The position numbers were made by a program, and so were the translations under genes. This document shows positions 59,756-63,522 of a stretch of 64,000 nucleotides of DNA, piece after piece. This stretch comes from Paenibacillus riograndensis SBR5 (GTDB taxonomy: Bacteria; Bacillota; Bacilli; Paenibacillales; Paenibacillaceae), in contig NZ_LN831776.1 in NCBI RefSeq assembly GCF_000981585.1, positions 3,331,187-3,395,186 on the forward strand. Reading direction: 5' to 3'. How positions within the stretch are numbered: the stretch's first letter is position 1; each line of letters begins with the position of its first letter. The notes under the pieces were generated by a model that ran no database searches, was not told where the DNA came from, and saw only the letters and a program-made list of their open reading frames with translations.

Positions 59756-59953
59756 ATGCGGATTCGAGACGGTCAACTGATCGAAATTGTATATATGGAC
59801 AAGCTGGGAACCCTATCTCAGCGGAAAATTGAAGTTGTGGGCATCAGGGACGGCCGGCTCCGGGCCCATTGTCTTACTGCCGGAGCCCCCCGCGTATTTA
59901 TTGTTGCCAATATCCTCGCTTGGCGGCGGGTAGGGGAGAAGCGCTATGCCTAA
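59756..59953 (+). CDS. Small protein at the head of an SOS cassette, 65 residues
   Basis: GGAGGCGGATCTT precedes ATG 59756. The sequence (MRIRDGQLIEIVYMDKLGTLSQRKIEVVGIRDGRLRAHCL) looks like a minimal beta-barrel, close in pattern to WYL-type modules that bind nucleic acid or ligands. It overlaps the polymerase start by 8 bp, so it is translationally coupled. I know of no assigned function. Its place before a translesion polymerase suggests a cofactor or regulator. Confidence 0.7.
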   Translation: MRIRDGQLIEIVYMDKLGTLSQRKIEVVGIRDGRLRAHCLTAGAPRVFIVANILAWRRVGEKRYA

Positions 59954-61208
59954 GGATCGTGTCATTCTGCTGTCCGACTGCCAAGCCTTTTATGCCTCGG
60001 TGGAGAAAGCCGCCCATCCTGAATATAGAGATAGACCGGTTGCAGTAGGAGACCCTTCCAGAATGAACGGCATTGTACTGGCAGCCTGCCCGGTTGCCAA
60101 AGCACAGGGCGTAACGACGGCCTCACGTGTAGGTGAAGCTTTAGCAAAATGCCCGGAGCTAATTGTTATACGCCCCCGCATGGGAACTTACATTAAGGTC
60201 TCGCTTCTGATCTCAGAAATTTACCGGACCTATACCGATCTGGTGGAGCCCTACAGCATCGATGAGCAGTTTCTGGATGTCACAGGCTCTCTTGCTTACT
60301 TTGGAGGGTCATTGAAAGACATGATTCAAAAAATCCAGCACCATGTTTTGCTGTCGACAGGTGTCTGGACCCGGATAGGTATTGGTTCCACTAAAGTCAT
60401 GGCAAAAATGGCGACAGATAACTACGCCAAAAAGATGAAGGACGGGATATACGAGCTTACCTTTAACCAGTTAGAGTCCACCCTGTGGAGACTGCCGGTG
60501 CAGGATATGTTTATGGTAGCGTCTAGAATGACCAGGAATTTTTGGCGCATGGGTATATCCACAATCGGAGACATTGCACGAATGGAGCTGCCGGAGTTTA
60601 AGCAGCGAATGCGCACCACAATGGGCAAGCAGAGCGATATCCAGGCGGAGTATTATTGGCAAACCGCGCGGGGGCTTGATCCTAGTCCTGTGGTTACAGG
60701 AATACGGCATCAGATCAAGTCCGTGGGGCATGGCAAGGCCCTGCGCTGGAATTTATATACCCGGCTGACGGATATCGAGGTTGTGCTGCTTGAGCTTGTC
60801 ATCGAGGTGTGCCAGCGGGCACGGCGGTATCGTTACATGGGGTCGGTGGTCTCTATTTCCGTTTTGGAGACAGACGGAGAGAGCTCATGCTCTTATGAGC
60901 GCCAGATGACATTGCCGGAGCCTTCATCGTTGACGCATGAAGTGGCCGCAGCCGCGCTCGCATTATTCATGGACAACTGGTCCGGGCTCCCTGTAGGGCG
61001 CTTAGCCATAACGTTGTCCCGCCTTTCGGATGACGGTGTGATTCAGCTTACGCTGTTCGATGACCGGGCCCGCTCTTACAATAAGGAACACGCAATCGAC
61101 GGAATTAAAGCCCGGTATGGAAATCAAGCCTTGATCAGGGCTTCATCTTTACTTGAATCCGGAGTTGCCCGGGAGAGAGCTGAACAGATTGGGGGTCATT
61201 ATAAATGA
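59946..61208 (+). CDS. uvrX: Y-family translesion DNA polymerase, UvrX-like
   Basis: A 420-residue Y-family polymerase: LSDCQAFYASVEKAAHPEY (metal Asp and steric-gate region), EPYSIDEQFLDVTG (catalytic Asp-Glu), IGIGSTKVMAKMATDNYAKK, a helix-hairpin-helix region (about 180-215) and a little-finger domain. It resembles the UvrX/YqjW group of Bacillus rather than DinB. No classical beta-clamp motif was checked. Under the LexA promoter, second gene, and overlaps the third by ATGA. Confidence 0.9.
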   Translation: MPKDRVILLSDCQAFYASVEKAAHPEYRDRPVAVGDPSRMNGIVLAACPVAKAQGVTTASRVGEALAKCPELIVIRPRMGTYIKVSLLISEIYRTYTDLVEPYSIDEQFLDVTGSLAYFGGSLKDMIQKIQHHVLLSTGVWTRIGIGSTKVMAKMATDNYAKKMKDGIYELTFNQLESTLWRLPVQDMFMVASRMTRNFWRMGISTIGDIARMELPEFKQRMRTTMGKQSDIQAEYYWQTARGLDPSPVVTGIRHQIKSVGHGKALRWNLYTRLTDIEVVLLELVIEVCQRARRYRYMGSVVSISVLETDGESSCSYERQMTLPEPSSLTHEVAAAALALFMDNWSGLPVGRLAITLSRLSDDGVIQLTLFDDRARSYNKEHAIDGIKARYGNQALIRASSLLESGVARERAEQIGGHYK

Positions 61209-61678
61209 GCAAACTCGACGGCAATGAACGCTGGAAAACAAAAATGATCATGACCGAGCATGTTGAGCAGTTCGAGGGGCAGCAGCGTGAGGCCGGAAGT
61301 AAAATGATAACGATTGAGGAGAGGACGATGGTCCGTGACCTCATCCTGCTCCCTTACATGGATACTATGGTCAGCAAGGGCCTCAAGGAGCTCGAGCACT
61401 CCGGCAGCATTCTGAAACGCGCCTATTCAATGGCCGGCCAAGCCATCCAGCGCCGGATCATGCAGGATACCTATCAGCTGCAGAAAGAGCTGAAGCAGCG
61501 GAATATCAGAGTGCTGGCGGATGAGCAGGAGGAATTTTTGGTGTATTACAAAATCTTTTGCCGGGGCTACCAGGAACGCTTTGGGCTAACCCGTGATGTT
61601 ATGCGTACAGAGATCAGCTTAAGGCTGACCCAATATACAGCCGACCTTGGGGCGGCATTAAGAGATCATCTGAAATAA
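61205..61678 (+). CDS. YolD-like protein of the SOS cassette
   Basis: A 157-residue protein whose N-terminus (MSKLDGNERWKTKMIMTEHVEQFE) matches the YolD-like family that accompanies UvrX-type polymerases, as YqjX does with YqjW. The remaining helical C-terminal part (about 40-157) is longer than in ordinary YolD proteins (about 110). It is thought to act as a polymerase cofactor in the manner of UmuD, which is a proposal from context. ATGA coupling with the polymerase gene, followed by a strong terminator. Confidence 0.78.
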   Translation: MSKLDGNERWKTKMIMTEHVEQFEGQQREAGSKMITIEERTMVRDLILLPYMDTMVSKGLKELEHSGSILKRAYSMAGQAIQRRIMQDTYQLQKELKQRNIRVLADEQEEFLVYYKIFCRGYQERFGLTRDVMRTEISLRLTQYTADLGAALRDHLK

Positions 61679-61712: not shown

Positions 61713-61791
61713 CGGGCGTACTTGGAGTAACCCCGTCTGACGGGCCGGTTTTGTAGTGAATAAGTACTATACGGTAGTCCTCTTTCGGATA

Positions 61792-61797
61792 TATAAT
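61792..61797 (+). promoter_or_regulatory. Possible -10 box of the agr-like operon
   Basis: TATAAT lies 40 bp before the TTG start. I see no good -35 at 17 bp, which would fit an activator-dependent promoter. No clear LytTR-type direct repeats were recognised. Confidence 0.35.
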
Positions 61798-61837
61798 TAA
61801 TGCATTGAATGAAAATTATGTCAGGCGGTGTTGTGTG

Positions 61838-62470
61838 TTGTCATGGGAACCTGTTGGCTATATGGCATTTTCAACAATTGAAACGATTTCAGTGTATTGT
61901 CTCATAATGTCGCTGTTCAGGTTTAAATTTATGAATTATATCTGGAAAGCCTTATTTATGGTGCTTCTCATTAATCTGCAGAGTTACATCATGCGAAATG
62001 AATTTTCACTTTCATACCTGGTTCCGCTGATTACGATTTTACTGTTTGCAATCTTTTTTAAGGTTGTGGTGAAGATCCCCTTGATCTGGTCAGTCATTGT
62101 AACGGTGTTGGGTTATGTGGCATACGCTTTTTTACAAACGGGCTTGGCCAAGCTGCTATTCGGCTCCATTGCAGTTGCCCAAGGAGATACTTCGAACGGT
62201 TATTTGCTGCAGTTTGCAAGCGGGTTAATAACCATCCTTTTATCAGTGTGGCTGTATAAAACCGGTTGGGGATTTAAGTTCGATTTTGAACGGCTCCGTT
62301 TTAAATTCGAAGATATATTGATGGTCTTATTGATCGTAGTCTTCCTGGTCTTCGTTTCGGTCATCTTCTATTATAATGATTTGTTTGTGAACATATTGTT
62401 TTTTGCTTCAGTCATGATGTTTCTGCTCTACTACGCTATTCGAAAGGAGGCCGAGGAAGACATTGATTGA
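61838..62470 (+). CDS. Seven-helix AgrC-sensor-like membrane protein lacking a kinase
   Basis: A 210-residue protein with seven predicted membrane helices and only a short KEAEEDID tail. The topology resembles the peptide-sensing membrane part of AgrC, but it stops exactly where the dimerisation/kinase part should begin. TTG 61838 gives SWEPVGYMAF; the frame extends back to 61805 without a ribosome site. It overlaps agrB by 8 bp. A receptor role is inference from position and topology; an export or processing role is also possible. Confidence 0.7.
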   Translation: MSWEPVGYMAFSTIETISVYCLIMSLFRFKFMNYIWKALFMVLLINLQSYIMRNEFSLSYLVPLITILLFAIFFKVVVKIPLIWSVIVTVLGYVAYAFLQTGLAKLLFGSIAVAQGDTSNGYLLQFASGLITILLSVWLYKTGWGFKFDFERLRFKFEDILMVLLIVVFLVFVSVIFYYNDLFVNILFFASVMMFLLYYAIRKEAEEDID

Positions 62471-62993
62471 TATTCTCTCCACAAGATTGGCAACCGGAAT
62501 CAAAAATATTGTTCCCGATCACCCGGCATCACACGCCGTCCTCAAGTTCGCAATAGCCGTGGTCCTAAATGTACTATCTATCCTCTCGTTGACTTTGTTA
62601 ATTTCTCTATTTACTGGCCGCCTAACTGAAGCCGGGTTGATATTGATCTCATTCGCATTGCTGCGGCAAGTGTCCGGGGGAGTACACCTTAAATCCGGAA
62701 CCAAATGTGTAATCTTCACCACGGCACTCTTCACTCTTTTATCATTTGTGGAGCTCGGTAATGTGTACGTTCAAATATTGAACGCTGTAAGCCTGGTCCT
62801 TGTACTGTGGTTAGCGCCGATCGGGATTGAACGGCAGACCCGTATACCTAAGCGTCATTGGCCAAAACTCAAAATAGCTGCAGGCGTCCTAATCATTTTT
62901 AATATGCTGTTCTGTTCGGCAGTAGTTGCAGCGAGCTTCTTCGCGCAGGCTTGTACTCTATTTCTTGCTTGGAGGGGGGTGAAATCAATATGA
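62463..62993 (+). CDS. agrB: AgrB-like cysteine endopeptidase
   Basis: A membrane peptidase that cleaves the C-terminal part of AgrD and forms the cyclic peptide. The catalytic pair is in RQVSGGVHLKSGTKC, with His and Cys seven residues apart as in Staphylococcus AgrB (H77, C84). About six membrane helices, 176 residues. TTG 62463 overlaps the preceding gene, and the stop overlaps agrD (ATGA). Single copy here. Confidence 0.92.
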   Translation: MIDILSTRLATGIKNIVPDHPASHAVLKFAIAVVLNVLSILSLTLLISLFTGRLTEAGLILISFALLRQVSGGVHLKSGTKCVIFTTALFTLLSFVELGNVYVQILNAVSLVLVLWLAPIGIERQTRIPKRHWPKLKIAAGVLIIFNMLFCSAVVAASFFAQACTLFLAWRGVKSI

Positions 62994-63127
62994 TCAAGAG
63001 TATTCAGCGTAAAGCGGTATATGGACTGGCGTCTGTTTTGTCAGGTATGGCCGCGTTGCTTGTGCTTGTCAGTACCAGTATTGTATATATCAACCAGCCG
63101 GAAGTGCCCGAAGAACTGCTGAAATAG
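62990..63127 (+). CDS. agrD: AgrD-like autoinducer peptide precursor with a Ser ring residue
   Basis: 45 residues: basic amphipathic N-terminal helix (MIKSIQRKAVYGLASVLSG), a hydrophobic stretch, the presumed signal ..STSIVYI, then the AgrB-recognition tail NQPEVPEELLK, equivalent to DEVEVPKEL of Staphylococcus AgrD. The protein contains no Cys. The residue at the ring position (fifth from the cut) is Ser30, which predicts a five-residue lactone [SIVYI] rather than a thiolactone. GGAGGGGGGTGAAATCAAT lies upstream. It is too short for automatic gene lists but is strongly supported. Confidence 0.88.
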   Translation: MIKSIQRKAVYGLASVLSGMAALLVLVSTSIVYINQPEVPEELLK

Positions 63128-63141
63128 TTTGGAGGTTTAGC

Positions 63142-63522
63142 ATGAGTATTATAAGCGCTACTAAAGATCTGGAGGGACAGTCAGGGCTTGTTTCTGTAAA
63201 AGGGGAAGATATCATCTTTCTTGGTACAGACAGCTCATCAAGCATCATATTATTGCACACTTTGGACTCCGTATTTTACACAACCGGTACACTAAAGTAT
63301 TGGACAAGGGTTTTAAATGCATCAGGGTACACCTTTTACTTAGCGGATCGTAATAATAGTATAAACATCCACAACATCGTGGAGATCAACAGTCTCCTGA
63401 AAGTTGCTTACTTCGAACGCGAACGGACCAAGGATTCAAAATATTGCACGATGTCCAAAAGCGGCATCAAAAAAGTTTGCCAACTTGTAGGAGAACTAAA
63501 TCCATCCGTGGTGTTCAATTAG
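63142..63522 (+). CDS. Stand-alone LytTR-type DNA-binding protein
   Basis: A 126-residue protein without a receiver domain. The pattern VSVKGEDIIFLGTDSSSSIILLHTLDSVFYTTGTLKYWTRVLNASGYTFYLADRNNSINIHNIVEIN fits the beta-strand LytTR fold (DIIFLE-like strand, ADRNNSINI in place of HRSYLVN). It starts 14 bp after agrD (TTTGGAGGTTTAGC) and is probably the output of the cassette. How the peptide signal would reach it without a kinase is unclear. Confidence 0.72.
   Translation: MSIISATKDLEGQSGLVSVKGEDIIFLGTDSSSSIILLHTLDSVFYTTGTLKYWTRVLNASGYTFYLADRNNSINIHNIVEINSLLKVAYFERERTKDSKYCTMSKSGIKKVCQLVGELNPSVVFN

Follow-up and report, generated by a model that had tools for sequence, protein, structure and literature searches.

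A kinase-less agr-like cassette of Paenibacillus riograndensis SBR5 in which a membrane protein may control a receiver-less LytTR protein directly

Canonical agr systems are composed of AgrB, AgrD, the kinase AgrC and the receiver-LytTR protein AgrA, and their secreted peptide is read by the histidine kinase. In the soil bacterium Paenibacillus riograndensis SBR5, the ORF list of the window (the whole stretch of 64,000 nucleotides analysed here) contains a four-gene agr-like cassette between positions 61838 and 63522, in which AgrB and AgrD are encoded together with a membrane protein and a small LytTR protein (Table 1). The kinase and receiver domains that carry out phosphotransfer in two-component systems are both absent from this cassette, which raises the question of how a peptide signal could reach the DNA. 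As the same two domains are missing in the commonest type of AgrB locus that we examined in the genus, the answer is either a contact between receptor and DNA-binding protein or some other unexpected wiring.

Table 1. Features of the cassette and of its minimal relatives (window positions unless a locus is named)
Feature	Position	Strand	Remarks
Likely operon promoter	61759..61797	+	AATAAGTACTATACG (61759-61773), 18 bp, TATAAT (61792-61797); aligned in relatives; function putative
Membrane protein	61838..62470	+	210 aa, TTG start; ORF; 7 predicted helices; proposed peptide receptor
Loop between helices 5 and 6 of the membrane protein, codons 143-156	62264..62305	+	G145-F146-x-F148 conserved; loop position from AlphaFold2
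AgrB peptidase	62463..62993	+	176 aa, TTG start; PF04647, 69.4 bits
AgrD pro-peptide	62990..63127	+	45 aa, ATG start; TIGR04223, 28.5 bits
Predicted AIP ring S-I-V-Y-I (Ser-lactone)	63077..63091	+	ahead of the tail NQPEVPEELLK; register set by the P-x-E-L tail; chemistry putative
Receiver-less LytTR DNA-binding protein	63142..63522	+	126 aa, ATG start; PF04397, 25.3 bits
Minimal membrane protein-LytTR pairs	L142:4992-6041; L143:4992-6050; L159:4998-6101		

The genes are tightly packed: AgrB overlaps the membrane protein gene by 8 bp, the AgrD start codon overlaps the AgrB stop codon (ATGA), and the LytTR gene follows AgrD after a gap of 14 bp. A second in-frame TTG lies upstream of the membrane protein gene, at position 61805. 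AgrB and AgrD both pass the cut-offs of their families (23 bits for PF04647 and 19 bits for TIGR04223), in agreement with an earlier note on this DNA, made from the sequence, which had called these two assignments firm. The LytTR protein passes the PF04397 cut-off of 22.6 bits. LytTR is the only domain that Pfam finds in it, with no receiver, and canonical phosphorylation is therefore not possible. Its AlphaFold2 model has a LytTR fold (pLDDT 91.7), with the LytTR domain of AgrA (4g4k, E 9.4e-8) as best match in the PDB. No match to a GHKL or receiver domain was found within 3.5 kb of the cassette, so that the absence of both phospho-transfer domains, also proposed in the earlier note, was borne out.

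AgrB was detected in 85 of 100 genomes of the genus, at no fewer than 150 places. We examined 103 of these AgrB loci, three of them from SBR5 itself, and classed them using purpose-built profiles. The membrane protein, AgrB and LytTR without GHKL were found at 82 loci, the membrane protein with AgrB only at 7, a GHKL kinase without this membrane protein at 11, both the membrane protein and a GHKL kinase at one (L093) and neither at 2. Among the 13 best-scoring AgrB places, the three examined all had a kinase and 10 were left out of the census; the latter are probably of the kinase type as well, and the share of the kinase-less form is therefore somewhat overstated. Even with this overstatement, the membrane protein and a GHKL kinase hardly ever occur together at one AgrB locus. 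The arrangement in the window is not a matter of chance, as it is found at 82 of the 103 loci and a second time in the same genome. The idea of a designed kinase-less unit is thus supported in the genus, where this form is conserved as the commonest AgrB locus type examined. An adjoining kinase and response regulator in relatives, which would have pointed to a truncated derivative, turned out to be rare (L093, 1 of 90 loci of the genus with the membrane protein). Truncation of a classical agr locus was ruled out as the origin of the window form, given its frequency in this census. In L093 the cassette contains a LytTR piece of 37 aa and is followed by a complete receiver-LytTR gene and a GHKL kinase.

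The SBR5 genome has three AgrB loci, namely the window, L005 and L006. L005 is classical, with AgrB, AgrD, a receiver-LytTR protein and a GHKL kinase; it adjoins a radical SAM/SPASM protein and an ABC transporter, the role of the latter read from the sequence (L005:3748-10103), and the region is perhaps a modified-peptide cluster. L006 is the second kinase-less cassette, with the same gene order as in the window. By BLASTP, its membrane protein and AgrB match those of the window (E 6e-9 and 5e-18, respectively), and no match is found between the two LytTR proteins (E 0.38).

Beyond the genus, the membrane protein family occurs in 121 of 197 genomes and 16 of 19 genera of the bacterial family, and in only 10 of 398 genomes of the phylum, 4 of which belong to the same bacterial family. 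Sixty loci from other genera, picked for their membrane protein from among the matches listed, comprised 49 with AgrB and LytTR, in line with a designed unit there too, 3 with LytTR and no intact AgrB, 7 with AgrB and no LytTR, and one with neither; no GHKL match lay in the examined span of these 60 loci. A further set of 34 named loci, which overlaps the others and is not independent of them, showed the three-gene order in 28 cases and lacked AgrB in 3 and LytTR in 3. Three Cohnella loci among these 28 (L172-L174) have GHKL kinase genes just upstream, on the opposite strand. Among the 120 matches listed of 202, those with names are nearly all Paenibacillus 'hypothetical protein' entries with no Pfam domain.

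The identity of the membrane protein is central to the question. It has no match in Pfam or NCBIfam at E<=1. A sequence search of the PDB with the membrane profile gave a single match at chance level (E 2.8). It matches phrog_15604 (E 9.2e-8). The AlphaFold2 model has seven helices (pLDDT 83.5), the first five of high confidence and helices 6 and 7 with a pLDDT of only 63-74. Neither Foldseek, run against the PDB and viral models, nor VIA-align gave a clear relative. Weak matches of the membrane profile in genomes of the phylum led to a set of related sensors (L133-L138). In L134 the region of similarity forms the N-terminal half of a GHKL kinase of 456 aa encoded beside a receiver-LytTR gene, in L137 the related sensor is a separate gene ahead of a GHKL gene, and in L133, L136 and L138 it precedes AgrB. 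Using hhalign, the membrane protein family aligned with this sensor set at 97.4% (E 1.6e-11), a set that was collected with the membrane profile and is not an independent sample. For the canonical AgrC sensors of the genus the value reached only 4.5-10% (E 0.003-0.009), and for AgrB, used as a control, it was 0.3%. The reverse search with the sensor set recovered the membrane proteins of the genus (E 6.8e-5 to 6.4e-4) and found relatives in 156 of 398 phylum genomes. In the best 30 of these loci (L255-L284), which include the 6 seed places, a separate GHKL gene comes next in 22, 18 of these also with AgrB; the remainder are 2 fused kinases, 5 loci with AgrB and no kinase, and one with none of these.

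On the basis of this kinship and of the layout of the sensor-set loci, the membrane protein is best interpreted as the sensor portion of a different class of agr receptors, here without its kinase. The low hhalign values given above ruled it out as an AgrC sensor of the canonical kind found in the genus. The description in the earlier note as a 7-TM AgrC-sensor-like protein next to AgrB, AgrD and a bare LytTR protein therefore stands for the gene content and the seven predicted helices and has to be changed for the sensor, which resembles another GHKL sensor class and not the AgrC sensors of the genus. From a reading of the sequences, helices 6 and 7 may be the counterparts of the helices with which the kinase genes begin. 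G145, F146 and F148, in the loop between helices 5 and 6, are invariant in 97 sequences. We propose this loop as a docking site for LytTR on the cytoplasmic side, a placement judged by eye from positive charges.

The His and Cys columns of the GGxH...C motif of AgrB, which we take to be the catalytic residues, are kept in all 130 cassettes compared, and AgrD was readable in 125 of them. Position -5 of AgrD is Ser or Cys in 81 of these 125 (75 Ser and 6 Cys), never accompanied by Lys at -4. Among the other 44, Lys is found at -4 in 41; of the remaining three, L218 and L222 carry Ser at -4 and L224 carries Cys at -6. The AgrD of the window is of the Ser type and that of L006 (L006:8057-8176) of the Lys type, as are other AgrDs of the sister branch to which L006 belongs. 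By count, a lactam through the Lys(-4) side chain and a lactone through Ser/Cys(-5) both give a ring of 16 atoms, which suggests that the Lys-type AgrD might yield a Lys-lactam autoinducer with the same ring size. A literature search by title and opening of the abstract found no Lys-lactam AgrD peptide.

The likely promoter of the window, TATACG-N18-TATAAT without a TTGACA-like -35, is conserved in relatives. The pattern TATAC-N15..20-TATA[AT]T occurs at 32 of 41 window-type loci of the genus and at 0 of 39 window-type loci of other genera; L006-type loci have a different element, in 22 of 43. An element that changes with the type of LytTR is no more than compatible with autoregulation. Within its own genome the element has 14 matches with up to 2 mismatches, compared with 37 and 34 for the reversed control pattern, and with zero mismatches only the window cassette itself is found. 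As these matches are fewer than those of the control, no regulon can be read from them. Nor was a conserved neighbour found as a fixed target at window-type loci; even in L062 and L101, which are close relatives, the first gene after the cassette is a different one. An Sda-like sporulation-checkpoint gene (L006:8752-8931; Pfam Sda, 30.8 bits) is located downstream of the L006-type cassette, and proteins of its cluster are encoded downstream in 34 of 134 loci. The upstream region of this gene is itself conserved, but unlike the cassette promoter.

Reduced loci and sequence co-variation indicate which of the genes belong together. Two loci from two species, L142 and L143 (P. wynnii), consist of the membrane protein and LytTR genes only, 25-34 bp apart, with no AgrB and no AgrD; between the two loci the dN/dS values of 0.15 and 0.13 for the two genes correspond to purifying selection. 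A third such pair (L159) lacks AgrB and has kept a scar of the AgrD tail. The genomes of L142 and L143 carry AgrB elsewhere, and these pairs may therefore listen to the peptide of another cassette; they look like listeners that no longer send. In L189 and L215 the membrane protein, AgrD and LytTR are present without AgrB, and both loci sit in stretches with several Xre-like regulators (roles read from the sequence). AgrB is reduced to short ORFs in L145, L146, L148 and L162. All pairs for which dN/dS could be computed have values of 0.05-0.31.

Across the 130 cassettes, distance matrices correlated with r = 0.83 for membrane protein and LytTR, 0.81 for membrane protein and AgrB and 0.77 for AgrB and LytTR. 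For 102 non-redundant loci the partial correlations were 0.55 (0.47-0.63), 0.49 (0.38-0.58) and 0.26 (0.13-0.39), respectively, and the bootstrap ranges separate AgrB-LytTR from membrane protein-LytTR, which makes the membrane protein the link between the other two. Within the window-type branch alone the values were 0.48, 0.41 and 0.34, with overlapping ranges. Compared with the window, L101 shows 87% identity in the membrane protein and in LytTR and only 66% in AgrB, as if AgrB had been exchanged as a separate module.

Copies of the cassette also occur in phages, where it could possibly serve a phage-level signal. The full cassette was found at five loci on four viral contigs (L235-L239), in one case between lysis genes and an integrase (L237; roles read from the sequence), and AgrB relatives were found in 8 phage records from 5 phages. 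Phages Abouo, Emery and Harrison (L252-L254) have the order membrane protein, AgrB, AgrD, LytTR, with an AgrD of the Lys type in all three. Their LytTR gene is annotated as 'peptidase' or hypothetical in the records; against Pfam its product scores above the cut-off in Abouo and Harrison and below it in Emery (19.1 bits), and the purpose-built LytTR profile matches all of them (E 6e-13 to 2e-10). The family phrog_15081, labelled 'peptidase', is a LytTR regulator (L252:5651-6019). Searches of a phage collection with DNA and with the membrane protein found nothing, and the LytTR search gave one weak match (E 0.4). In the window, a phage-type DNA polymerase gene (59946-61208; phrog_1268, E 2.3e-85) lies upstream of the cassette, and the gene that follows it (61205-61678) has a look-alike, recognised by eye, upstream of the cassette in L235.

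On the signal route, which the earlier note had left open, the evidence taken together tips towards a membrane protein that controls LytTR directly, and we favour, with reasonable though far from full confidence, the view that the four genes form a complete peptide quorum-sensing unit without phosphotransfer, in which a seven-helix receptor gates LytTR. AgrB would trim and cyclise AgrD into a Ser-lactone peptide, as expected from knowledge of the family and from the conserved Ser. The membrane protein would bind this peptide as a kinase-less receptor and would pass the signal straight to LytTR by contact on its cytoplasmic side, where the GF.F loop and the C-terminal tail are perhaps involved. 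The receptor would then either release LytTR from the membrane, as reported for the LytTR Regulatory Systems (LRS), or switch it on. LytTR would presumably go on to activate its own operon and other targets. What we observe agrees with such a route at several points: the gene content with a LytTR lacking a receiver, the near-exclusion of the membrane protein and GHKL kinases at the 103 loci, the homology to GHKL sensor parts (the L134 fusion and the hhalign value of 97.4%), conserved membrane protein-LytTR pairs that persist without AgrB under purifying selection, and the co-variation that places the membrane protein as the link. The LRS provide a mechanistic precedent, as far as the accessible part of their description goes (PMC6193735). 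Against direct control stand the promoter element confined to the genus, the search for LRS-like direct repeats upstream, which found none, the overlap of partial correlations in the window-type branch, and the lack of any membrane protein-LytTR fusion among the 120 matches listed of 202. What speaks most against a simple pairing of receptor and regulator is the existence of 14 loci (7 of the 103 in the genus and 7 of the 60 in other genera) with membrane protein, AgrB and AgrD and no LytTR nearby. Their genomes hold other LytTR proteins, as judged at a threshold that misses even the LytTR of the window.

These 14 loci would fit a cassette devoted to peptide production, in which the membrane protein assists AgrB in the synthesis or export of the peptide or in tolerance to it, and in which LytTR is a simple autoregulator that does not sense the peptide. 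The clostridial loci with membrane protein and AgrB and no kinase (5 of the best 30) point the same way. Yet purifying selection preserves membrane protein-LytTR pairs that have neither AgrB nor AgrD, and elsewhere the family forms the sensor portion of kinases; we consider this explanation unlikely.

A borrowed kinase, i.e. docking of the membrane protein on a GHKL kinase encoded elsewhere, with LytTR as a local feedback regulator only, appears quite improbable to us. It is favoured by the relatives in other Firmicutes, which adjoin a separate GHKL gene in 22 of the best 30 loci; the clostridial ones probably dock on this neighbouring kinase. Matches to PF14501 are available in all 100 genomes searched in the genus, and GHKL genes stand next to the three Cohnella cassettes, on the other strand. 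However, the LytTR protein has no receiver, membrane protein-LytTR pairs are retained alone, and the complete genome G071, with two cassettes (L035 and L099), contains only 2 PF14501 matches, the better with E 9.6e-6. Decay of a classical agr locus to a non-functional remnant without kinase and receiver, as the short AgrB ORFs of four loci and the 37-aa LytTR piece of L093 could suggest, is largely refuted by the gene order conserved at 82 of 103 loci, the active-site columns of AgrB kept in 130 of 130 and dN/dS values of 0.05-0.31, and we hold it to be very improbable.

If the receptor does control LytTR directly, the four small genes would make up a peptide circuit that works without phosphate, and with it a simple and portable sensing module. 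More tentatively, and with more doubt than belief, one may imagine such phosphate-free agr quorum sensing in much of the bacterial family and some of its phages, with one branch, including L006, using a 16-atom Lys lactam made by AgrB. The two-gene pairs and the phage-borne copies make the signalling question directly testable.

With agr the cassette shares an AgrB with the His/Cys pair, an AgrD with Ser at -5 and a P-x-E-L tail, and a LytTR fold close to that of AgrA. It differs from agr by the absence of the AgrC histidine kinase (3.5 kb searched) and of the receiver, for which reason we do not file it as agr proper, and by a membrane protein that shows no detectable kinship with the canonical AgrC sensors of its genus. 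The split sensor-kinase agr loci of other Firmicutes (L255-L284) likewise have a related sensor domain beside AgrB; there a GHKL gene comes next in 22 of 30, whereas the cassette has no kinase and its LytTR is receiver-less. Phages Davies, Emery and Abouo, in which Hargreaves et al. (2014) described kinase-less AgrC-like proteins (PMC3901668), have the membrane family, AgrB and AgrD in common with the cassette; the LytTR gene is unmentioned in the accessible part of that paper. Two phage genome papers name, in their accessible parts, only the AgrB gene (PMC4168068, PMC4909266), and Paenibacillus and Brevibacillus do not appear in the accessible part of a 2025 review (PMC11945551). In the open-licence literature we found no paper on a chromosomal kinase-less cassette or its LytTR partner.

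In the LRS, exemplified by HdrRM and BrsRM of Streptococcus mutans, a receiver-less LytTR regulator is combined, without a kinase, with a membrane protein that inhibits it, and the accessible part of the description reports release of the regulator from the membrane (PMC6193735). Both systems thus pair the same kinds of proteins and probably follow the same logic. As far as that part goes, they differ in several respects: the membrane gene is second in the LRS and first in the cassette, and DUF3021 and DUF2154 are not matched by the cassette membrane protein (Pfam, E<=1), although some published LRS membrane proteins also lack them. The LRS have direct repeats upstream of the -35, whereas near-exact repeats with periods of 12-39 were not in excess in 90 regions ahead of the membrane gene, in a search that could miss weaker repeats. 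The different gene order and the repeats not found are the reasons for not filing the cassette as an LRS, to which its coupling to an AgrB/AgrD peptide signal adds a further difference. The cassette is a real, conserved variant of agr that probably works like an LRS with a peptide ligand.
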